From: Armatimonadota bacterium | Lineage (GTDB): Bacteria > Armatimonadota > UBA5829 > DTJY01 | Length of the DNA: 64,000 nucleotides | NCBI GenBank assembly: GCA_023511795.1 | Contig: JAIMAU010000010.1 | Location: forward strand, 1-64,000 | Direction of reading: 5' to 3' | Shown here: positions 18,415 to 32,028 of the stretch, piece by piece | Numbering within the stretch: position 1 is the stretch's first letter | How the letters are laid out: each line of letters opens with the position of its first letter | Notes under the pieces: model-generated | What the model saw: the letters and a program-made list of their open reading frames with translations, nothing else | What the model was told of the DNA's origin: nothing | Databases searched by the model: none | Translations under genes and position numbers: made by a program

Positions 18415-19647
18415 GTGAAATTTGAGCGTAAAGATAAGGAAATTTTGCGCGAGCTTGCAGGCAAAGTTGCAGAGGCTGCGGCCCATCCACGGCAGGCTAA
18501 GCTACGGGAGATGTGGAAACGTCACAACCGATTAGAAAAGGTAAAGCCGATGGTTCTAGTCTATCCCGAATGCTCGTGGATGGAAATACTTCCCGATTCT
18601 GCTCTCCAGTGCACTAATGATTTGGCAAGAAGATACGAGAAACAGCTTCGCCAGCGCATTTACTATTGGGAATATCTGCGCGATGACAGCGTACAGGAGC
18701 CTTGGGTGAAGGTGGATTTGTGCTGGTGGACTACGGGCTGGGGTATTACTCCTACCACAATTCCGAGTCCAGTGGAGCGCGGTGCTTGGGCTTTCAATCC
18801 ACCAATCAAAGAGGAATCGGACATTGAGAAGCTCGAATTTCCAGACCTTGTTATTGATGAGGAAAGAACACAACAAAACTTCGAGGCGCTTCACGACGCA
18901 ATTGGCGACATCCTAGAAGTTAAGATTCACCGGAGGATTTTTGCTTGGAACTTTACTGGACTGGCGAACATTTTTATATACCTTCGCGGCCTTGACCAGA
19001 TGATGTGGGATATGGTTGAGCGTCCGAAATGGTTACATCGTGTCATGTCATTCCTGGCAGAAGGGAATATGCGACTTCTTGACCAAGTGGAAGCTTACGA
19101 CAAACTCGACTTGGTGAACACCGATGATTATGTTGGCTCGGGCGGATTGGCGTATACCGATGAATTGCCAGGGCCAGGGTTCCAAGGGCGAGTGAGACTT
19201 CGCGACCTATGGGGATTTGCCGAGGCACAAGAGCTGGTTGGCGTATCACCAACAATGCACGAAGAGTTCATCTTTCAATATCAGCGGCCATTGCTAGAAC
19301 GATTTGGCTTGAACTGCTATGGTTGTTGTGAGCCAGTTACTGACCGCTTGGACTATGTATTCAAATTTGCGAGGATGCGCAGAATCTCAATTAGCCCTTG
19401 GGCCGATCGCCGCATAGCCGCAGAGAAGCTCCAAGATAAGTATATATACTCATGGAAGCCAAATCCTGCGCATCTTGTGGGTGGTTTTGACGCTGATTTT
19501 ATTCGCAGGTATATCCGAGAAACGCTCGAGATTGCGAAAGACTGTATATTGGAGATTATTCTTAAGGACGTTCACACGGTTGAATACCATCCCGAACGCC
19601 TTTGGGAGTGGGTGCGGATTGCACAGGAAGAGACTGGTGGATTCTAG
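18415..19647 (+). CDS. Uroporphyrinogen decarboxylase (UroD/MtaA) family protein, probably a methyltransferase
   Basis: A 410-residue soluble protein of the UroD superfamily, starting at GTG with CAGGGGGTGA nine bases before. The C-terminal half has GLNCYGCCEPVTDRL (near residue 300) and RRISISPWAD, seen in a UroD-like group that is not the haem enzyme; the Cys-Cys-Glu-Pro segment falls where MtaA/CmuA corrinoid methyltransferases carry zinc ligands. No haem gene is adjacent (hemB is about 30 kb away). Placement behind a GH106-like hydrolase suggests work on a sugar or its methyl ether, for example moving an O-methyl group; this is inference and no corrinoid protein is seen nearby. Its last four bases overlap the end of the convergent gene. 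Confidence 0.75.
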   Translation: MKFERKDKEILRELAGKVAEAAAHPRQAKLREMWKRHNRLEKVKPMVLVYPECSWMEILPDSALQCTNDLARRYEKQLRQRIYYWEYLRDDSVQEPWVKVDLCWWTTGWGITPTTIPSPVERGAWAFNPPIKEESDIEKLEFPDLVIDEERTQQNFEALHDAIGDILEVKIHRRIFAWNFTGLANIFIYLRGLDQMMWDMVERPKWLHRVMSFLAEGNMRLLDQVEAYDKLDLVNTDDYVGSGGLAYTDELPGPGFQGRVRLRDLWGFAEAQELVGVSPTMHEEFIFQYQRPLLERFGLNCYGCCEPVTDRLDYVFKFARMRRISISPWADRRIAAEKLQDKYIYSWKPNPAHLVGGFDADFIRRYIRETLEIAKDCILEIILKDVHTVEYHPERLWEWVRIAQEETGGF

Positions 19648-22600
19648 TTTTTTGCCTTTGTGCTTCTATCAACCTTCAATTCCTTTACGACGCATCCCAC
19701 ATCCCTTGGGCCAATTTCTAACGTAAGGTAAGCAATCTCGCCTACGATGCGGGGCTTGAGCTCACGGCCATTCCATACGTCGTAATACTTAGCACCTGGG
19801 GTATGCTCGACGGCTAATAGCTCTCCACGCACTGTTGAATAGTTTGCATTAAAAAGCGTCCAAAGTGTGCGCTCCTTCGCCGGGAATTTGTTTGCAAATA
19901 CTAACTTCTGCCCCGTCGGAACAAGCGGCACCGGTGATAAGGATGTGAAGCAATCTTCGTATTTTCGCATCACTTTATGCATCTTGCGGATGAAAGCTAG
20001 TACTTGTGGCGCAAACCATTTGTCTGCTGGTCCTTCCAACCAAATACCTTCGCCGTTGAAGAAGATTTGACGCACAGCAGTCAAACGGTCTCCAAGGGGT
20101 TTATCACACACAATGATTTCAAAGGTCTTAAAATCCAGCAATGCAAAGCGAGTTAGATTTATATGCGAGGGCGACCAGGCATCCGAAACGCTTGAGATTG
20201 CGTAGGTGAAGCTTCCATCTTGATGTTGAGTATTTACATCAGCAGGTGTTTCTTCGGTATAGAGGGCGACGTCTGGACCTAGCGCCTGCCTAATTTTCTT
20301 TAGAAGGTCTCGCTGTCCCCTAAGCGGTGGCTCTGGCACGGAATGTCCATGATTTTCGGCGTAGCAGAAGTGCCCTGGGTCTGCAAATCCCATTTCATCG
20401 CAGTAATAGCCTAGTGCGTGGGTTTTTTCCTTTATGGTGCTGTAGACCGAAGCAAGGTAATCCTGCCATTCTTTCACCGCTGAGCACATGTTTAACGCCG
20501 GTGCAAAGAATGGAAGGGGCTTGCCATCTTTGCCGATAATTTGCCACTCTTTACCGTGAGCTTGAGCTATGCGCGACTGCGGGTCAACCAAGTAGCCTTC
20601 GATATAAAGGCCCACAGGAATTCCAGATGCTTGCGTCTTTGTAATTGCGTCGCGGAAAGCTTCTACACCGCCAATCTCATCCCAGGGGTCGTAGTCACCG
20701 CACCTGCCCCACTTTTCTGAAGCACCCCAATCGAAGAGATGGAGATAATCAACGCCGCCGAATGCCTTTGAATCCTCGGCAATGCCTTCAGCAAAAGTGT
20801 ACTTTTTCTTTTCCTTGTTGTAATACTTTTCCCCGCCTGGTATGTAGAACCGCAAAAACTGCTGGCGGAAGTTGAATACTTTACGGAACCAATCCTTGCG
20901 TGGCGCATCAGGCTTATACCATGTGCCAATCCATTCCTTGTACGCATTAAATGCCGAGTGCCAATCGCCTTTGTGGAACCCAATTGTTGTTGCTGGAGAA
21001 GTGAAGCGCGCCCAGGGAAGCACTTCCTGCTCTAGATACTCCACGCTCATTGAAATGCCCTTGGCATCCTTTCGCAGGTGGAAGTAGCGGTACGTTGCTA
21101 ATGTGTCCATCGTTATTAGGTACATTCCACCGTCAGGACCATAGACGTCCATGAACTGCAAAGGCATTAAGCCGGAATACGGTTCGCGGAGTTCAATGGG
21201 AATGTCGTTGATGACTGCCCCGCGTCTTGGAAAACAATACGAGAGGTTTGCACCCCGCAGACTTTTGATTTCTGATATCGTCGGAAAGTCTACTTGAATT
21301 TTGCTTTTCTCTTTTGTCCAAAGGTCTAACTGAAAATGGATGCGGTCACCCGATTGAGGTGTTATACTCAGTAAGCCGTTGATGCCAAGGCCTTTTCGGT
21401 CAGTCAACTCAAGAGTGGAGAATACGCCACGTGACTCGACTACTGAGCCTTCGAAATCCGTGGATTCGAGAATCTGGTCGCCCATGCGAACTCGCCAAAA
21501 ACTTCCTTTGGCTGATATGCTTGGCGGTCCCTCTTCGCCTCTTATTTCGATTGAGACGCCTGGTCTATAGCGAACCACCACTCGAGTTTCGCCATTGAAT
21601 ATCTCGATTCGCTCGCTAATAGGACTCACATAAGCATTCCAATTGTAGTTTCGCTTTGCCTCTGAATAAATATGGGCCTTTGCGCCGCCTACCTTCAAAG
21701 GTCGTGCATGTGCGGCAATATTAGAATCAAACCCAATGGTCGCCGAAATTAGGTAGAGCGACACGCTAGGTATGTTTTCTCTGATTATCAGCTCTTTGAT
21801 GGGATGCTCTCTTGAGGTGGTTATGGCATAGACCCCAAAGCCCTGAGCAAGCCCAAATCCTTCGGGAATTCGCGCTGGTATGGTTTCATCCGCCATGGCA
21901 CGCGAATACACAATCTTTGCAGAAAACAAATGAGGCTCAGGGGAAAGGCTGACTGCATCTTTATTTTTTGATGCAGTGGCTATAAGCAAGAAGATTTCTG
22001 AGGCCCTGACCTCATTAAGCGGGATGTGAAGTTCTGTGGGCTTGTCAGCATAGGTCATGGCAAGGCTTTTGGGACCGGAGTAGATTCGGAAGGGTATGCC
22101 CGAGACTATGATTTCATTCTCTTTTGACCACTCGCTTATGTTCAACTCTTCCATTAGAACTTTGTGGCTGGAGTTGAAAATGGAGCGCAAGTCAACAGGC
22201 TTAAAATTTTTGCCAGCTTTCTGCTTATCCGTTGCCAGAAGCTCTGCAAACGTTAGTTTGGGGGCATTTTCATGAAATTCCAAGCGTGATATTTCGATTG
22301 TTCCATTGGGACGGGCAGCCTGCAGCTGAACTGCAAGCATATCTGCCATGACAGGGTTAGCCTGTTTCACCAATGTATGCCATCTTCCGTCAGATATAAA
22401 ATCGCTCGGCTCGGCGATAAACTGCTCCTCGCCCTTTGTTCCATGGATGTAGACAAAGTACCCCAGTGGATGGTCGGCGCCAATCGCACGATAGCGTATC
22501 AGCAACCAAGGGGTCTTCGCCAAATCAAGTGGTTGCGAAATCTCGGCAGTCCACTTCATTCCTCTTCCAGGTTGTTTGACTTCAAAGCGGGTGACCTCGG

Positions 22601-22757
22601 GCGAACTGCTAACTTTATGAAAGTCCGCTGGATTGTGAACCCAATCGGGGCGAGCGTTCCAGATTAACTCGGATGTCAGGTTCGCCCCGACTGCATTGCA
22701 ATCTAGCGTTAGGGCTAGCAAAAAGGTTAATGTAGGGATGATTTGAAATACTGTCAT
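19644..22757 (-). CDS. Exported glycosidase-like protein with DUF6259-type TIM barrel
   Basis: A 1037-residue protein with a Sec signal peptide (IIPTLTFLLALTLDCNAVGA). N-terminal half: beta-rich modules (residues about 30-480) with a carbohydrate-binding look. Middle (about 600-900): a TIM-barrel hydrolase-like region with YLHLFDWGASEKWG, IPVGLYIEGYLVD, GYYCDEMGFADPG and ALYTEETPADV, similar to the uncharacterised DUF6259 group. The acidic residues in CDEMG and TEET are candidate catalytic positions, unproven. C-terminal beta domain closes it. Last gene of the minus-strand operon; the gap to the previous gene is 57 bases. Ribosome site before the ATG is weak. Confidence 0.7.
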   Translation of the reverse strand: MTVFQIIPTLTFLLALTLDCNAVGANLTSELIWNARPDWVHNPADFHKVSSSPEVTRFEVKQPGRGMKWTAEISQPLDLAKTPWLLIRYRAIGADHPLGYFVYIHGTKGEEQFIAEPSDFISDGRWHTLVKQANPVMADMLAVQLQAARPNGTIEISRLEFHENAPKLTFAELLATDKQKAGKNFKPVDLRSIFNSSHKVLMEELNISEWSKENEIIVSGIPFRIYSGPKSLAMTYADKPTELHIPLNEVRASEIFLLIATASKNKDAVSLSPEPHLFSAKIVYSRAMADETIPARIPEGFGLAQGFGVYAITTSREHPIKELIIRENIPSVSLYLISATIGFDSNIAAHARPLKVGGAKAHIYSEAKRNYNWNAYVSPISERIEIFNGETRVVVRYRPGVSIEIRGEEGPPSISAKGSFWRVRMGDQILESTDFEGSVVESRGVFSTLELTDRKGLGINGLLSITPQSGDRIHFQLDLWTKEKSKIQVDFPTISEIKSLRGANLSYCFPRRGAVINDIPIELREPYSGLMPLQFMDVYGPDGGMYLITMDTLATYRYFHLRKDAKGISMSVEYLEQEVLPWARFTSPATTIGFHKGDWHSAFNAYKEWIGTWYKPDAPRKDWFRKVFNFRQQFLRFYIPGGEKYYNKEKKKYTFAEGIAEDSKAFGGVDYLHLFDWGASEKWGRCGDYDPWDEIGGVEAFRDAITKTQASGIPVGLYIEGYLVDPQSRIAQAHGKEWQIIGKDGKPLPFFAPALNMCSAVKEWQDYLASVYSTIKEKTHALGYYCDEMGFADPGHFCYAENHGHSVPEPPLRGQRDLLKKIRQALGPDVALYTEETPADVNTQHQDGSFTYAISSVSDAWSPSHINLTRFALLDFKTFEIIVCDKPLGDRLTAVRQIFFNGEGIWLEGPADKWFAPQVLAFIRKMHKVMRKYEDCFTSLSPVPLVPTGQKLVFANKFPAKERTLWTLFNANYSTVRGELLAVEHTPGAKYYDVWNGRELKPRIVGEIAYLTLEIGPRDVGCVVKELKVDRSTKAKN

Positions 22758-22814: not shown

Positions 22815-24563
22815 TTAGTAGTATCCTTCTTGAAGAACCACCACATGCTCTTTGTGCTCTGGCGAGAATGGGATGGTTACGACAATCCTGCCTTCCTCAA
22901 TAGTTGCGGAGCCATCTTTGCGATAGGGATTGTGAGGCAAAACAGGCCAAGTCACGCTAGACCCCTCGGGTAGCGAGAGCTTCCACCCCGCGTGTGCTAT
23001 CCATCCCCCAGCATTACGGCTTGACAAAGTGAATCCCTCTTCGCCTAAGAGCTTCTCAGCCATTTTCTCAGCGCGAAACGGCTTGCCGATATGTGGTATT
23101 AGAGTTAAGTGTGCAGCGACCGGCAAGCCCGATTTATTTGTCGCCATTAAGCGAATTTTTAGTGTGGAAGCGTCTACTGGCTCCACCTCAATTGAGCATT
23201 TTTCCTCGCCATATACCAGCCCCAAGCCGGGTGGATCCGTCTTTTTAAGCCCAGCCACGGAAGGCACGTGGAATAGTTGTCCTTCAGGCATAAAGTTCGG
23301 ATTCTCATCACCAGGCTTGTGTTTCAGAAGAGAGATATCCCCAACAGTAAAAGTGCTCCAGAGTGGTTGGAGTTTCGTATTTCCACCGCCAACAATAAGA
23401 CCGCAATTGTCGTGAAATATGCTTACCAAGTTTTGTCGGTCTTGTAGCCATCGACTTTTTGGAATAGGACAATGGTAAGCTGAAAGGCAAATGAACCATG
23501 GGCCTTTGCGTCGTATCAGCGACTTTCCATCGCTTGTTATGAACGTTCGGTCGGATTCCTGAGCTGCTGTTGGGGTGACTGGGCCTTCTTGACCGTACAT
23601 GAGAAAGCTTGCACATGAATCCGCCGAAACTTTGCCGCCACTCTTGGCAAGCAGGTTGAGCTCCTGAAGCACATATCCCCTGCCCTCTGGCGTGAGCGTA
23701 AAGGCAACGTTGGGGAATCTTATCCTGCGGTGGTAGGGTGTCCGCTCATCGACAGTCTCAACGGAGGTGCCATCGGGATATGTAAAGTTTGTATGAAATC
23801 GAATTGCCCGCTCGATTGCCGGAAGTACGGTTTCATCGTGTGAAACCGCATAGTATATTCCTAGCGCGTTTGTATAAACATTTCCATATCCTACCACTGG
23901 GCCGCAGTTCTCGGACCAAAAACCTGCCGGGTCCTGTGCCGCGACTACTTTCGCCATGAACTCCTTTGCCTGTTTGCACCATTCTGGACGGTCGAACACT
24001 TGACCAGCGATGTATAGGCCCATGGCATGATGGGTAGGGATATTGTGAACCCGCTTCAGAGCTGTTTGCGAAATCCCAGTGTATCCATGAATTAGTGCAT
24101 CATCCCAGCGCTTCTTTTGCGAAGGAGTCATGCCTTCGCGAACAAGTCCATAGGACATTATCCAAGCTGAATACGTCCATGGCATGTAAATGTTGCCCCA
24201 GGTCGAGCCATCTTTCTTGCGAAATTCCCACTGTCCATCAGGCTTTGCCTCGGCGATTAGTGCGTCACCAGCCTTGACAACAGCCTCCAGTACTTTTGGA
24301 TCATGGTAGTATGGGTTCGCTGGCGACTTCAGCGCCCACGCTACTGCAAGGCTGAACATTATGTTCTGGTCGTTTACAATCCATATGCCTTTTCCAAAGC
24401 GTCCTGTTTTAGGGTCCTGGTCCTTTAGAATATCAGGCACCGATGCCACGAGCATTCGCAGGAACTCGTCCTTGAATCGCAGTTCTTGTGGTTGTTTATC
24501 TGATGAAGCATAAACGCCTACAGCAAATATAAGAGTCAAGATTGCAAAAAGGTACTTTTCCAT
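22815..24563 (-). CDS. Exported alpha/alpha-toroid protein, polysaccharide-lyase-like
   Basis: A 582-residue protein with an N-terminal signal (LFAILTLIFAVGVYAS). Residues about 25-300 are a run of amphipathic helices with aromatic and polar glycan-binding residues (WTYSAWIMSYGL, HNIPTHHAMGLY, GYGNVYTNALGIYYAVSHDE), typical of the (alpha/alpha) toroid domain in heparinase II/III, alginate or chondroitin-AC type lyases. Residues 320-582 are beta-rich, as in the second domain of those lyases. A conserved Asn-His region (NIPTHHA) and Tyr residues could be catalytic. Family assignment is by pattern only; a lyase would produce unsaturated uronic acids that can feed KDG metabolism, for which genes exist at 44.8-46.4 kb. 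Confidence 0.6.
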   Translation of the reverse strand: MEKYLFAILTLIFAVGVYASSDKQPQELRFKDEFLRMLVASVPDILKDQDPKTGRFGKGIWIVNDQNIMFSLAVAWALKSPANPYYHDPKVLEAVVKAGDALIAEAKPDGQWEFRKKDGSTWGNIYMPWTYSAWIMSYGLVREGMTPSQKKRWDDALIHGYTGISQTALKRVHNIPTHHAMGLYIAGQVFDRPEWCKQAKEFMAKVVAAQDPAGFWSENCGPVVGYGNVYTNALGIYYAVSHDETVLPAIERAIRFHTNFTYPDGTSVETVDERTPYHRRIRFPNVAFTLTPEGRGYVLQELNLLAKSGGKVSADSCASFLMYGQEGPVTPTAAQESDRTFITSDGKSLIRRKGPWFICLSAYHCPIPKSRWLQDRQNLVSIFHDNCGLIVGGGNTKLQPLWSTFTVGDISLLKHKPGDENPNFMPEGQLFHVPSVAGLKKTDPPGLGLVYGEEKCSIEVEPVDASTLKIRLMATNKSGLPVAAHLTLIPHIGKPFRAEKMAEKLLGEEGFTLSSRNAGGWIAHAGWKLSLPEGSSVTWPVLPHNPYRKDGSATIEEGRIVVTIPFSPEHKEHVVVLQEGYY

Positions 24564-24573
24564 TTTATCGCTC

Positions 24574-26571
24574 TCATTCTAGCTCAATGCCGAAGCCAGA
24601 TGCTACGCATTGCATCTCACCAATCATGCGGGTAATAACTGCGATTTGTTTGCCAGTAAAAATTTCATTAGGCGACCTTCCTGGTACAAGCGCTTCCCAG
24701 TTCGGAAGTTGGCTGACCACCTGGTTAAGGCCATCCACGTAAGCCTTGAAGTAGTCTAGTGCTTTTCCCTTGTTTTCAGGAGCTATGCCCTCTGGCTTAA
24801 CAATCTTCCTGAGTTCCCACAGAGCATTTAGAGAGTTTATGTATCCCTGGATGATTAGGCTCTCGCTCACTAATATTGGGATTTCTATTTCTTTTGCGAG
24901 TTTGACAGCTTCCGCAGCGGCGGCAACGTCATTTTTTAGTTGCTCCTCGCTTTTGATGTCTCCGAATGGCAATCGGTAGGCATCCCAAAGGACGAATCCC
25001 AGTTCGGGCAGTGTGCCCTCTTTGAGTCTTTTTGCAGAGTGGCCAGGTGTGTTCCTTTGTTCTCCAGCTGGCCAATGAGAGCCATACACATCCCACGCAA
25101 CAGGACTGATAAGCTCCACCCAGTCTGCGAACTTCTTGGGGTCCTTTAGTCCTTCACGAACGGCCCACGATTCGGCAAATTCACGTGGTGTTCGCCCCTT
25201 GGAATTCCACGACCATTCGGCGGCTGCCTCAACATTGAACCTGTTGTAGTGGACCCGCGGCGTGGCATATCCCAGCAGACCCGAAAGGCCCTTATCAACG
25301 AACTCGTTCATGCGATAATGGATGAAATGAGGACCAGTAAACGGGCTTGTCCAATGCACACCAGCGTCAAGGTTCGGCACAACGCCCAGCCAATGGCCGC
25401 TCTTTGCATAATCCTCTAGGTATTTGCGGAGCATGGGTACTTCGCCGTTGTCGTAGGTCAACAGGCTATGATAGTACCAGACTTTGACTTCCTTTGGAAG
25501 TTCTTTGAATATCAACTGGTTACTACTTTCCGTTTCTTCACTCGTGAGGATTCTAAGGCCTAGATGAGGAAGTTTTTTCTTTGCTTTATTCCAGGCGGCT
25601 AAGACGGTGCGAGCTTCAAGGACGCTTCGGTCTACCTTCTTGCATTCTTCGCATGTGCATCCGCCTTGTTGATCAAGGTTTTCTGCAAGCCACACGTCAA
25701 CTTCACGAACATGTGGTATCTTTCCAAGCGAAACTATCCAATCTGCTAGTACATCTACAAATTCAGGCTGTGAGTAGCAGATTGCACCCTCGCCACCGCC
25801 CTTTGCTTTGAGATTAGGATAGGCTGCGAATACGCCTTTGTTGCCAACCTGCTCGAGGTGCAGGACTACCGGAACGAAATTTATTCCGTAGAGTGGCCCC
25901 TCCGTAAATAAGGGCTCATGGCCATCCTTTGGCCTAGCTGTTGCGATTTTCCTCTCATCAACGCTGACATAGCAGATTTGCTCAACAATGTTCATCTTCC
26001 GGTCTGCAAGCCACTTCAGGTGCAGGAAAGAGTCCGAGCCCCACAATCCCCTGTCTGCAAGGTCGGGCCAGTCGGTTATTTCGGCTATTGGCATATCAAC
26101 CTTTCCCGCGGCGGCGTGCGCCTTTATAAGCTGCTGGAGGGTTTTCGCAGCGTAATATAATCCTCTGGGGGTTTGGGCAATGAGGCGCAGTGTCTTTCCA
26201 CTTGCATCGGGGACAATCTTATAGGCTTGGTCAGAGTTCTTTAGGCTTTTGAGACTTGATGCTTCCGGCCCGCCTAGCTTGAGAACGATTGTGAATGCTG
26301 GTTTTGAAGGCGACTTAGCTTTATTTGGTATGCCGATTGCCTGCCGAAGTTCCGCACATGCCTGAACAACTACCGGGTCGGTGCTGTCAGCCCTGATTAT
26401 GACTTGGTCGGCAGGAATGGTGTTTTTTGCTGTAATCTTAACTGACTTTGGCAGAGGAACAAGATGCATAATCCATGCCTTGGCTTGGTCAGGTTGTATT
26501 GGTGAAACTGCTCCTAAAATTGGCGTGGCTAGAAGATAACAAATAATTATTCCCATAATAACTCTTAGCAT
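24574..26571 (-). CDS. Exported GH20/GH84-like glycoside hydrolase
   Basis: A 665-residue protein with a signal peptide (IMGIIICYLLATPILGA). Residues about 35-170 (LVPLPKSVKITAK..., AYKIVPDASGKTLRLIAQTPRGLYYAAKTLQQLI) form the GH20b-type N-terminal domain of hexosaminidase-related enzymes. The next region (about 180-500) is a TIM-barrel with DLADRGLWG, CTCEECKKVDRS and VKVWYYHSLLTYDN, closest to DUF4838/GH20-like uncharacterised hydrolases; the usual catalytic Asp-Glu pair of true GH20 is not recognisable to me. The ATG has AGGAGG about ten bases upstream, and only seven bases separate it from the stop of the preceding gene, so translation is probably coupled. An active glycosidase on amino-sugars is possible, not certain. 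Confidence 0.65.
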   Translation of the reverse strand: MLRVIMGIIICYLLATPILGAVSPIQPDQAKAWIMHLVPLPKSVKITAKNTIPADQVIIRADSTDPVVVQACAELRQAIGIPNKAKSPSKPAFTIVLKLGGPEASSLKSLKNSDQAYKIVPDASGKTLRLIAQTPRGLYYAAKTLQQLIKAHAAAGKVDMPIAEITDWPDLADRGLWGSDSFLHLKWLADRKMNIVEQICYVSVDERKIATARPKDGHEPLFTEGPLYGINFVPVVLHLEQVGNKGVFAAYPNLKAKGGGEGAICYSQPEFVDVLADWIVSLGKIPHVREVDVWLAENLDQQGGCTCEECKKVDRSVLEARTVLAAWNKAKKKLPHLGLRILTSEETESSNQLIFKELPKEVKVWYYHSLLTYDNGEVPMLRKYLEDYAKSGHWLGVVPNLDAGVHWTSPFTGPHFIHYRMNEFVDKGLSGLLGYATPRVHYNRFNVEAAAEWSWNSKGRTPREFAESWAVREGLKDPKKFADWVELISPVAWDVYGSHWPAGEQRNTPGHSAKRLKEGTLPELGFVLWDAYRLPFGDIKSEEQLKNDVAAAAEAVKLAKEIEIPILVSESLIIQGYINSLNALWELRKIVKPEGIAPENKGKALDYFKAYVDGLNQVVSQLPNWEALVPGRSPNEIFTGKQIAVITRMIGEMQCVASGFGIELE

Positions 26572-28016: not shown

Positions 28017-29183
28017 TCAATCTCCTTCTAATTTGGTAATTTTAGGAGGTCTGGGGTGCTGGATGGGTATGAAAAAGACATCGTCTTTTATGAGGCCGTC
28101 AGAACGCAGTATGTTTGAGCGTGCAATGCGTAAGCACGTGGGGATAAGGGTTGAAAAACTATACGGGACATACGAGAACTGTTTATCAGAAATTGCAGGG
28201 ATGCCGCTCTTGTATTCGTCAGGGATGGCGTTATAGCCAAGGATTGTGCACAGTATCCCAGCTGCGGTCGAGGGATTACAGTCAGAGTCTTGCCCGCAAC
28301 GCGTTGATATCTCGAGCGTCTTGGACAACGAGCCATTGCCGTAGAGTAATCCAATTACAACGTAGGCACCGTTTAGACTTGCGTCTATATTGAATCCATT
28401 TGGGTCCGAGGAGCAGTGACCGCTGGGTTTGGAAGCCCATTTTTCCTGAACTCTCTGCCAGGTTTTGCGCCAATCGTCTGGATATACCCAATGCCAAATG
28501 ATAACATCGCGAATAGTTTTGGCATAAGTGCTGTTCGGCGGAATTGCGCGAAGACCGAAGCGCACAACCTTTTCAACGTCGGTTTCAAAGAAAGCAGACG
28601 TGTACATCGCGGCGGTGAACATTCCTCCATAGAGACCATCTTCAGAATTCATTAAGCGGCCAAGTTTGTTGCACATTTCATTCGAAGAAAGCGGCATACC
28701 AGGGCTAATCAACCCAAAGAGGTCAGATTCGATTTGGAAATCAATGTCGGCATAGTGGGCATTGTACTTCGGGCTTCCGGAGTCGGGCGGCATGATTCCT
28801 TTGCGCACATTCTCTCTGCCTTCGTTGTTTGCATGCCATAGTTTGAACTTAGTGGCTGCAAAAGCCTTTCCAATTTGCTCATTTGAGATGTCGAGCCCAT
28901 ACTTTTCGATTGCCTCGAGGAAACTAAGTTCAACGTAGATATCATCCTGTCCAAGAGAGTTGGAGACGTTTTCCGGCGACCACTTTATCGGCTCGTCGAA
29001 AGTTCTGCCGCACGCTTTGAACTCCGTGGGAGCACCGTATGAGACGCCGATCATCTGACCAGCCCATCCACCCTTCATTTTGTCTAGATAAACGCTGACT
29101 GGCAAAGTCCTAAACTGTGCTCCGTGAGCTGTTTTGAGCATTCCAAAAATTAAAATTAATGAAAAATATTTGCTCTTTCTCAT
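28017..29183 (-). CDS. Exported ADP-ribosylglycohydrolase-fold protein
   Basis: A 388-residue protein with a signal peptide (SLILIFGMLKTAHGA) followed by the ARH fold: GGWAGQMIGVSYGAPTEF, then GQDDIYVEL (residues 78-86) where cytosolic family members usually have TDDT, and GQDSDCNPSTAAGIL (297-311) for the second metal-site motif GxDxDT. The metal-binding aspartates D80, D81, D299 and D301 are therefore kept, while the Thr residues are replaced. A signal peptide is unexpected for an enzyme that removes ADP-ribose from proteins, so another substrate, for example a glycan bond, is likely. GAGGAGG lies seven bases before the ATG. It sits among glycosidase-like genes in the same operon. Confidence 0.8.
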   Translation of the reverse strand: MRKSKYFSLILIFGMLKTAHGAQFRTLPVSVYLDKMKGGWAGQMIGVSYGAPTEFKACGRTFDEPIKWSPENVSNSLGQDDIYVELSFLEAIEKYGLDISNEQIGKAFAATKFKLWHANNEGRENVRKGIMPPDSGSPKYNAHYADIDFQIESDLFGLISPGMPLSSNEMCNKLGRLMNSEDGLYGGMFTAAMYTSAFFETDVEKVVRFGLRAIPPNSTYAKTIRDVIIWHWVYPDDWRKTWQRVQEKWASKPSGHCSSDPNGFNIDASLNGAYVVIGLLYGNGSLSKTLEISTRCGQDSDCNPSTAAGILCTILGYNAIPDEYKSGIPAISDKQFSYVPYSFSTLIPTCLRIARSNILRSDGLIKDDVFFIPIQHPRPPKITKLEGD

Positions 29184-29213: not shown

Positions 29214-31841
29214 TCAATTGCCGGGTAATGTTGGTAAAATTTCCACAACCGCCACTTCTTCAGGGTAAAGTGCAATCAGTATGTCACCTTTATCAACGAA
29301 GAGCGGCTGTTTTCCAGGCAATTTGAAAGCTGATTTTGGCTTGCCGAGTTTAGCGTCCAGTCTCAGCCTGGCAGTTACGCGTTTATCACCCCTGTTGCGC
29401 ACGGTAAAGTACAATGTGCCATCCTTGCCCGGTCCAAAGCGTTCAATTTCAACCCTTGAATCAGAGGTCCTAGCCATCGTTACCGGCTCCCAGCCGGCTC
29501 GCGCGATCTTTTGAATTACTGGTAAATACTTTTTAAATAGCTCACGGTCTCGTTCATAGTATTTTTGTTGCTCGAAATAAAGACGAGTTGCCGCATCTGG
29601 GCTGAAAAATCCTGGGAACATTCCCCAGAACATGCACCGCTGGAAGTATTTTTCGACCAGGCTATGGTCGAAAGCCTCATAATCTGTGTTCATGAGGTAG
29701 CAGAACGGTTTTTTATAGCAAAGCGTTCGCCTAAAGTCCATAACATCGTCGGGCAGAGGGTTGTATTTTCCATTTGAAAGCCAGTTGGTTTCGATACCCA
29801 TAACATCTAAGAGATGTGCCATGAAACCAAAGCTTGTCGGTATGCCGTTTGCCATCATGAGCTTCCCCATCTTGCGGATGTCGTCGGCCATTGTTTTTGC
29901 AAACTCATAGGTAGAAAGTATCTGAAGGATAGCAGGTTTCTTTGTTCGCCTGCAGAAGGATAGAGGACGAATGGCATATTTGAAATGCTCTCGGCGAGTG
30001 TTGACATATGGTGCCCCCATTTCCGCAGAGTCCAAATACTCCCCAGAAAGTTGGGGCTTTGTCTTGTCGCCATAAAGCTTCTCAGCTATTTCTTTGTTCC
30101 AAGATATACTAGCACGTGTGGCAGGCATATCACCCTTTGGAATCGCTGGGTTAGGGTTGAGTAAGAACATTGCCCCATCGCACCAGGGAGCGTCGAAGAA
30201 AAACAGCCGGGGTTTGCCATATTCGTCGAGGGTCAAACAAGTCTTCACCGCAGAAGCCCAATCCCGAAGTGCGACGTCATTGGTTTGCTTTAGATTTTCC
30301 TCTATCATTTTGAATGCCTGCTCTTGAGTTCGCGGCAGGCTTTTCTCCATAGGCATCCAATAGGACATTGGCTCTGTATATCGGAACGAATAAATGCCGT
30401 TTGCCGCATCCCACTCTATGTCATTATCGCCTTCGTGGAATGCAAAGCAAAAGTCCTCCCAACCTCGAACTTTTCGTACCTGCAGGAATGCCATCCAGTT
30501 GCCTTCGCGCTCAACTCTTTTCTCGAAGTATTCTGGGAAAATGCGGTAATATTTCTCAACTGCTTCCCTCATGCCTCCAGCGCTGGTGGTTTTGTAAATA
30601 AGGAACGAGAACTTTTGTTTTACAACACCCTGCTCGGGGCAGAAGCCGAGGTCGAAGGCAATGTAGTACCACCTAATTGCACCATTATATCCAATACGAT
30701 AAACACATGGTTCGTCCATGGGGATCGCAAGATTGATCGCATCATTACGTCCACTCATGCAGGAAAATGGATATTTTGACATAAGTCCCACTGCTCCGGC
30801 TTCTATGGGGACGCCGTCGCAGAAGGAATTGTCGTCTGATGTCTTCTCCGACGACCGTATACTATGCCACCAGTACCAGTCCTCTTTTGGCATTGGGATT
30901 GCAAAGCCAATCGTTAGCGCACGGTCACAGCCCGTCTCATCTTTGGCCTCGCAGTCAAAACGTATATGATTCTCGCTAGCGGTTGCGGTGGCATTAATCG
31001 AAAGCCTTAGCTTGCTACAGCTACCGGAAAGTATCCATTTCCGCTGGGATGTCCTCTGTATATTGAGCTTATCTAATCCTAGCACATCTGACCCGGCGGC
31101 TACGTCCCTCAGGTAGAACCCTCCGCCCGCAGGTAGAACGGTTTTACCAAGCCGTCCGCTTAGAATCGAGCCGTCTTGTGCGAGAATTAGATCAATCCCA
31201 TCGAGGGATGTGAGCCTGACTGCCTGCTTGCTTTTCTCTAAAATTGGCCTCGAAACAAACATTCCATCGAATAATGCTGTGTTTCCTTTTGCCCTGATTT
31301 CCTCAAGCCGGCAATCATCGAACCATGCTTTCCCAACACATCGGCGGAGCAGAAGATACACGTTTACTAGCTTAATTGGTTTTTCTGGATCAAAATATAC
31401 CTCGCCGCGCTGCCAGCCATGAGTTCCGCTATTGAAGTCGTAAAGTTGCCCCCAAATCCATGTACCATCAGCGTATTGGATGTCAAGGTAGAGCGCATAA
31501 TCACCTTTCCAAGCCGGGCCCACGCCTCCTGCTTTGCTCCATACGCTCGCTCGAATAGCTTTGGGAGACTTCTGATTCAGGACAACGGTTTGAAAAGCTC
31601 CTGCCTCGATTTCTGAAGATGAATTCTCACAGCGAATGCTCATCCTGCCAGCGCGTCGCACGGAAGAGTCGAAGGAGAATCCCTTGCCAAATGGTTTCCA
31701 ACCTGACTCTTTCTTCTCAAAGCTAGAATTCACGAGCAAGTTTTTACCGACGCCTGGTCCTACAATATGAAGCAACGTCCGACTTTCGGCAACAGTGGGA
31801 ATCATTGAAAGAAGACTCACAAGTGCAATAATAAACCTCAT
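29214..31841 (-). CDS. Exported multi-domain glycan-active-like protein with N-terminal carbohydrate-binding module
   Basis: An 875-residue exported protein (signal MRFIIALVSLLSMIPTVAES). Residues about 32-180 look like a CBM4/9-type jelly roll (NLLVNSSFEKKESGW, FQTVVLN, GWQRGEVYFD, KAWFDDCRLEEI). Residues 200-430 are a beta-sandwich, and 430-800 a probable TIM-barrel hydrolase-like region (LRDWASAVKTCLTLDEYG, GEYLDSAEMGAPYVN, GLMTNTDYEAFD-like LMNTDYEAFDH, GMFPGFFSPDAA). The C-terminal part is beta again. I could not name a GH family; residues such as the Glu and Asp in GEYLDSAE are candidates. Two ATGs are present; the second (31841) has GGAG at the usual distance. First gene of the minus-strand operon. 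Confidence 0.65.
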   Translation of the reverse strand: MRFIIALVSLLSMIPTVAESRTLLHIVGPGVGKNLLVNSSFEKKESGWKPFGKGFSFDSSVRRAGRMSIRCENSSSEIEAGAFQTVVLNQKSPKAIRASVWSKAGGVGPAWKGDYALYLDIQYADGTWIWGQLYDFNSGTHGWQRGEVYFDPEKPIKLVNVYLLLRRCVGKAWFDDCRLEEIRAKGNTALFDGMFVSRPILEKSKQAVRLTSLDGIDLILAQDGSILSGRLGKTVLPAGGGFYLRDVAAGSDVLGLDKLNIQRTSQRKWILSGSCSKLRLSINATATASENHIRFDCEAKDETGCDRALTIGFAIPMPKEDWYWWHSIRSSEKTSDDNSFCDGVPIEAGAVGLMSKYPFSCMSGRNDAINLAIPMDEPCVYRIGYNGAIRWYYIAFDLGFCPEQGVVKQKFSFLIYKTTSAGGMREAVEKYYRIFPEYFEKRVEREGNWMAFLQVRKVRGWEDFCFAFHEGDNDIEWDAANGIYSFRYTEPMSYWMPMEKSLPRTQEQAFKMIEENLKQTNDVALRDWASAVKTCLTLDEYGKPRLFFFDAPWCDGAMFLLNPNPAIPKGDMPATRASISWNKEIAEKLYGDKTKPQLSGEYLDSAEMGAPYVNTRREHFKYAIRPLSFCRRTKKPAILQILSTYEFAKTMADDIRKMGKLMMANGIPTSFGFMAHLLDVMGIETNWLSNGKYNPLPDDVMDFRRTLCYKKPFCYLMNTDYEAFDHSLVEKYFQRCMFWGMFPGFFSPDAATRLYFEQQKYYERDRELFKKYLPVIQKIARAGWEPVTMARTSDSRVEIERFGPGKDGTLYFTVRNRGDKRVTARLRLDAKLGKPKSAFKLPGKQPLFVDKGDILIALYPEEVAVVEILPTLPGN

Positions 31842-32028
31842 AGCCATAACTCCAAAATTAGGATTATCCGGAAGCTGGCTTTAAACCTCCTAGTGCTTAG
31901 CTTGCCTGTTTGACTTTCGATTAATCTGCTGAAACTGCATTTGCGGTAGAATTTTTGTAAAACAAGGCTTTTTTGCCACATTCTAGGTTTAAGGTGCCGC
32001 AAAATATGGAGCAACCATTGCAATCGTG

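Follow-up and report, generated by a model that had tools for sequence, protein, structure and literature searches.

We report that a gene in a 64,000-nucleotide stretch of an Armatimonadota contig (the window) encodes a predicted exported protein with the ADP-ribosylglycohydrolase (ARH) fold, and that this protein belongs to a distinct family, the QDD family, which keeps the metal-binding aspartates of the fold and carries an acidic stretch where ARH3 holds ADP. We give an even chance to the view that its members are exported binuclear-metal hydrolases that act outside the cytoplasm, breaking the anomeric bond of a ribofuranoside or a closely related furanoside, with the ribose then imported and phosphorylated. 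A more specific proposal is tentative: the family may represent a new exported glycoside hydrolase family built on the ARH fold, consisting of binuclear-metal furanosidases with Gln and Cys in place of Thr, often with a carbohydrate-binding module (CBM), that target ribofuranosyl polymers or glycoconjugates and not ADP-ribose. We infer that the QDD protein is not an eraser of ADP-ribosylation.

The gene lies at 28017-29183 on the minus strand, as do all features of the window given below. Its open reading frame starts with ATG and encodes 388 amino acids, of which residues 38-323 match the ARH profile PF03747 (E 3.2e-29; 103 bits, cut-off 26.2). An AlphaFold (AF2) model shows a confident all-alpha ARH fold (pLDDT 92.5) that superposes on ARH3 with Z 30.2 and an rmsd of 2.7 A over 294 residues, and on DraG, ARH1 and MJ1187 with Z 26-29. 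Among the sequences of solved structures, the protein alone found no match and a profile found weak motif matches only; NCBIfam yielded no family. ARH-like folds also occur among solved structures in roles outside ADP-ribosylation: the Orf2971-FtsHi motor complex and the trypanosome mitoribosomal small subunit contain such subunits (8xks_Q, 9hny_FP and 6sga_FP). Residues 1-21 of the window protein (29121-29183) read as a signal peptide, MRKSKYFSLILIFGMLKTAHG followed by AQF, with a likely cut between AHG and A; diverged relatives keep such a peptide, for example MRRLILSSLICIFIAGAAQA before R and MTRALFIALAAIILLGGIASA before A.

In ARH3, Thr76, Asp77, Asp78 and Asp316 bind the first metal (MgA) and Asp314, Asp316 and Thr317 the second (MgB), with Asp77 and Asp314 touching two hydroxyls of the terminal ribose, 2''-OH and 3''-OH (PMC8141533). 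Activity requires Ser148, Tyr149 and His182, which bind adenine and phosphate (PMC5727137), and is severely reduced by the G150E substitution (PMC8319183). We mapped these residues through an alignment of four PF03747 groups, by way of canonical relatives that can be aligned with ARH3. In the window protein, QDDI (residues 79-82, 28938-28949) replaces TDDT and GQDSDC (297-302, 28278-28295) replaces GGDxDT. By this mapping, Asp80, Asp81, Asp299 and Asp301 would correspond to ARH3 Asp77, Asp78, Asp314 and Asp316, Glu54 (29022-29024) to the flap residue Glu41, and Gln79 and Cys302 to Thr76 and Thr317, and the family appears to keep the metal core with two ligands swapped. The Thr ligands are absent, with Gln79 and Cys302 present instead, in 42 of 42 members of the Armatimonadota set; QDD, DxDC and many adjoining residues are invariant across the 42 aligned family members, which argues that the motifs of the window protein are neither an error nor chance. 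Glu54 is found in 41 of the 42 rows, the remaining row being partial. The position of ARH3 Thr317 is Ser in some canonical relatives, and the Parabacteroides and Spirosoma members have Tyr where other QDD proteins have Gln before the Asp pair.

The ADP side of the site seems to have been lost. Aligned with the ADP-binding loop of ARH3, GNGGxMR, is an acidic loop conserved in the family as DIDxQIE; in the window protein it reads DIDFQIESD (146-154, 28722-28748), of which Asp148, Gln150 and Asp154 are invariant in the family alignment. His182 is replaced by the family-invariant Asn179 (28647-28649). In most of the related NDD and DDD proteins described below, the His and a portion of the Gly/Arg loop are still present; loss of the ADP grip is therefore particular to QDD. 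The preliminary description, made from the DNA letters, had proposed for this gene an ARH fold, a signal peptide, retention of the paired Asp sites and loss of Thr from both TDDT and GxDxDT. All of this is borne out, the four Asp of the metal site and the flap Glu being in place, and the structure prediction it had suggested as a check gave the confident model above.

Across the 291 genomes of the same phylum that we searched, identity to the window protein runs continuously from 97% down to about 45%, with two outliers at 37-41%, and then drops to about 30%, a gap that places the protein in a distinct family. The QDD family comprises 39 core members, nearly all from Armatimonadota, plus two Bacteroidota proteins, both on plasmids: one from Spirosoma and one from Parabacteroides distasonis, which aligns with 95% of the query at 44% identity. 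One more member (L035) comes from a MAG labelled Omnitrophota. A scan of genome contigs, which reaches close relatives only, returned two loci, and no relative was found in the viral contigs searched. We built a tree of 111 PF03747 proteins, almost all of them Armatimonadota sequences, in which eight canonical proteins (T/S-DDT with DxDT/S, short, without signal peptide) split from 103 non-canonical ones (SH-aLRT 100). The latter fall into NDD, DDD and QDD branches, with DxDC in almost every protein, and the 39 QDD proteins are a clade (SH-aLRT 100). In a second tree the Parabacteroides and Spirosoma proteins stay with the 39 QDD rows and the other 32 rows stand apart (SH-aLRT 100). PF03747 is expanded in the class of the window organism (L001, L002 and others), with up to nine matches per genome, and these copies are mostly non-canonical DxDC forms.

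Export is predicted for 35 of the 41 QDD members examined, 33 by an automatic rule and two (L059, L064) by eye with another start, and is thus typical of this branch. In the NDD and DDD branches, which share the Thr losses, signal peptides are mostly absent, indicating that loss of Thr follows the clade and not export. We therefore rejected the Thr losses as an export signature. The preliminary description had read them as the mark of an active site retuned to an extracytoplasmic bond, a reading that does not hold, the same N/D/Q-DD and DxDC motifs running through the whole partly signal-less clade of 103 sequences. Its broader direction, toward a glycoside outside the cytosol, is supported on other grounds, namely the lost ADP-binding residues, CBM-like domains and sugar-transport or ribokinase neighbours. 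Some DDD members also look exported, and export has thus probably arisen more than once. A single genus (f24/g109: L048, L049, L051, L052, L055 and L057) has no signal peptide at any upstream start and retains the CBM-like domain, offering a natural test of the need for export.

This C-terminal domain, of about 160 residues, is conserved in at least 19 aligned members. Its model is a beta-sandwich (pLDDT 90.9) closest to CBM36, CBM35, CBM51 and CBM6 (Z about 10-11), and Foldseek matches it to CBM35 with E of about 3e-5; since a cyclase with a similar fold ranks first in Foldseek, we use "CBM-like" to describe the fold only. Three members (L060, L061, L064) carry a C-terminal Zn_ribbon_2 in its place; both domains are missing from the window protein and the relatives nearest to it.

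Six genes on the same strand, separated by gaps of about 7-57 bp, extend from 31847 to 19644 in the window, and the ARH gene comes second. Directly upstream lies a gene for an 877-residue protein with an apparent signal peptide (29214-31847) that matched no Pfam family, NCBIfam family or solved structure and is possibly an undescribed secreted enzyme. Downstream follow an FAD-dependent oxidoreductase (PF12831, 26579-27970), a 665-residue protein with a GH20b domain (24574-26571), a 582-residue protein of no known family (22815-24563) and a 1037-residue DUF6259 protein (19644-22757). The glycosidase operon of the preliminary description thus stands in part: the run of six genes is there and two of them, GH20b and DUF6259, have glycosidase-type domains, but one encodes the oxidoreductase and two are without a family. 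Nor does the operon recur across the exported homologues, whose phylogeny and neighbours that description had proposed to compare: we found this gene order elsewhere in a sister species only (L036), and the glycosidase-containing operon is genus-specific. The operon contains no ribose gene and no ribokinase or sugar transporter adjoins it; the genome does encode a strong ribokinase and RbsB- and RbsC-like proteins, on other contigs.

Clustering of neighbours across the family revealed no widely shared gene and no conserved glycosidase partner, with 133 Pfam families among 99 neighbours. Glycan-type neighbours of other members include GH123, glucuronyl esterase and pectate-lyase-like proteins. 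The context that recurs across the family is ribose-type sugar transport and uptake. RbsB/RbsC-type genes lie within two genes downstream in three Armatimonadota lineages: directly downstream in L047, one gene further in L038, and in L060, L061 and L064 as an RbsB-like gene directly downstream, after which RbsA-like and RbsC-like genes come where the contigs extend far enough. Because such binding-protein genes (PF13407) number only 2-9 per genome, the chance of finding them in three lineages among about 35 loci is low, about 0.0005-0.0015. The RbsB-like neighbours score equally against D-allose and RbsB models, below both cut-offs, and weakly against galactofuranose binders; with this ambiguity between allose and ribose, the transporter genes do not fix the imported sugar. 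In Parabacteroides, the gene order is ribokinase (rbsK), ARH, nucleoside hydrolase and GRP sugar transporter, and in Spirosoma it is ribokinase (rbsK), ARH with its frame broken in the record, and GRP transporter. The Spirosoma plasmid homologue (L155, 14980-16530) is unannotated, and the reading frame is interrupted downstream of GQDSDCNP. A more distantly related protein of DDD type, from Flammeovirga, likewise comes after a ribokinase and a GRP transporter, beside SusC/SusD. On Rhizobiaceae plasmids (L158, 5777-9097; L159, 5861-9181), genes of the ADP-ribosylglycohydrolase family stand in tandem within LacI/sugar-ABC operons, and one of these operons includes a ribokinase. Ribokinase is found in 35 of 42 genomes with the family and 112 of 249 without it (Fisher p 3e-6), a co-occurrence to which we give little weight since the genomes are not independent.

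How might such a protein work? Two divalent metals would be bound in the ARH site, gripping the furanose diol in the manner of ARH3; the places of the two Thr ligands would be taken by Gln79 and Cys302, or by waters, and attack of water on C1 would free the sugar. The bond cleaved may be a riboside, probably alpha as for ARH1 and ARH3, and the product, at any rate in the Bacteroidota members, would probably be ribose, imported and phosphorylated. In Parabacteroides, the nucleoside hydrolase may handle beta-N-ribosides, leaving alpha-ribosides to the ARH enzyme, an assignment that follows from the selectivity of ARH1 and ARH3 for alpha-1'' linkages (PMC7050489). Fold, residues, export signals, domains and neighbours are results of computation; catalysis, metals, anomeric preference and substrate are inferred from them, as is the transfer of this function to the window copy; our literature search found no assay of any QDD-family member. 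We favour a riboside because the metal core is kept, the ADP grip is lost, the protein is predicted to be exported, CBM-like domains are present, and ribose-type transporters or ribokinase adjoin other members. Against it we count the window operon without a ribose gene, the great variety of neighbours, the ambiguous RbsB-like scores, the signal-less genus and the lack of a CBM-like domain in the window copy.

The main rival keeps the same chemistry and changes the sugar: an exported glycoside hydrolase could act on arabinofuranose, galactofuranose, apiose or a cis-diol pyranose in a plant or microbial glycan degraded by the neighbouring enzymes. We regard this as a possible but less than likely explanation. 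The GH20b and DUF6259 neighbours make it a better fit to the window than a riboside, the GH123, glucuronyl esterase and pectate-lyase-like neighbours elsewhere and the CBM-like domain agree with it, and the RbsB-like neighbours are as similar to allose binders and weakly similar to galactofuranose binders; it sits poorly with the ribokinase adjoining the Bacteroidota members and with the want of a conserved glycosidase partner. An extracellular or periplasmic ADP-ribosyl hydrolase, recovering ribose or ADP-ribose from NAD-derived or ADP-ribosylated material, would account for the fold, the Asp quartet and the flap Glu, all as in ADP-ribosyl hydrolases, and for the nucleoside hydrolase and ribokinase of the Parabacteroides operon, but conversion of the ADP-holding loop into a conserved acidic stretch, replacement of His182 by Asn and the CBM-like domains make it improbable.

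Replacement of both Thr ligands and the fusion of many members to a CBM-like domain could also suggest a catalytically dead ARH fold used to bind a sugar or a metal (compare ARH2). Conservation of the four Asp and the flap Glu across about 35-97% identity is unlike a decayed site, and we consider this quite unlikely. The hydrolase of an extracytosolic sugar-phosphate bond that the preliminary description had also entertained we hold to be scarcely credible: we found nothing specific in its favour, the acidic loop D146-D154 sits where the phosphate-binding loop would be, and no phosphate-linked neighbours recur.

Accounts of the ARH fold deal almost entirely with the removal of ADP-ribosylation. 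A conserved exported branch that has retained the metal core, shed the ADP grip and acquired CBM-like domains would bring this fold into carbohydrate scavenging and account for many genes annotated as "ADP-ribosylglycohydrolase" in sugar operons, and it could establish a family of glycoside hydrolases whose chemistry depends on metals. The ribose utilisation system of B. thetaiotaomicron studied by Glowacki et al. in 2020 reportedly includes ADP-ribosylglycohydrolase-family genes in ribokinase operons, and ARH-type proteins in Bacteroidota ribose loci have probably been noted already. A search of the literature on ADP-ribosylglycohydrolases in polysaccharide loci gave nothing useful, and we found no ARH link in the paper on the STM3547 ribose kinase.

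Taken together, the QDD protein resembles ARH3, ARH1 and DraG (PF03747) in fold (Z 26-30), Asp quartet, flap Glu and motif order, and differs from them in having Gln and Cys at Thr76 and Thr317, a replaced ADP loop and His182, and about 12% identity; whereas those enzymes are intracellular, it is predicted to be exported, is often fused to a CBM-like domain and occurs in a sugar-uptake context. The mostly cytosolic NDD and DDD proteins share its DxDC in place of DxDT, but the His and some of the Gly/Arg loop survive in them, and most have no signal peptide. The Parabacteroides and Spirosoma proteins share the QDD core, falling in the same clade with a D(I/L)DxQIE loop, Asn179 and GQDSDCNP; these ribokinase-linked proteins differ in the Tyr that replaces Gln before the Asp pair, the Parabacteroides one being lipoprotein-like, and they sit with rbsK and a GRP transporter, whereas the window copy has neither beside it. 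The Rhizobiaceae relatives are likened to the family by gene context, having sugar-utilisation surroundings in common with it.
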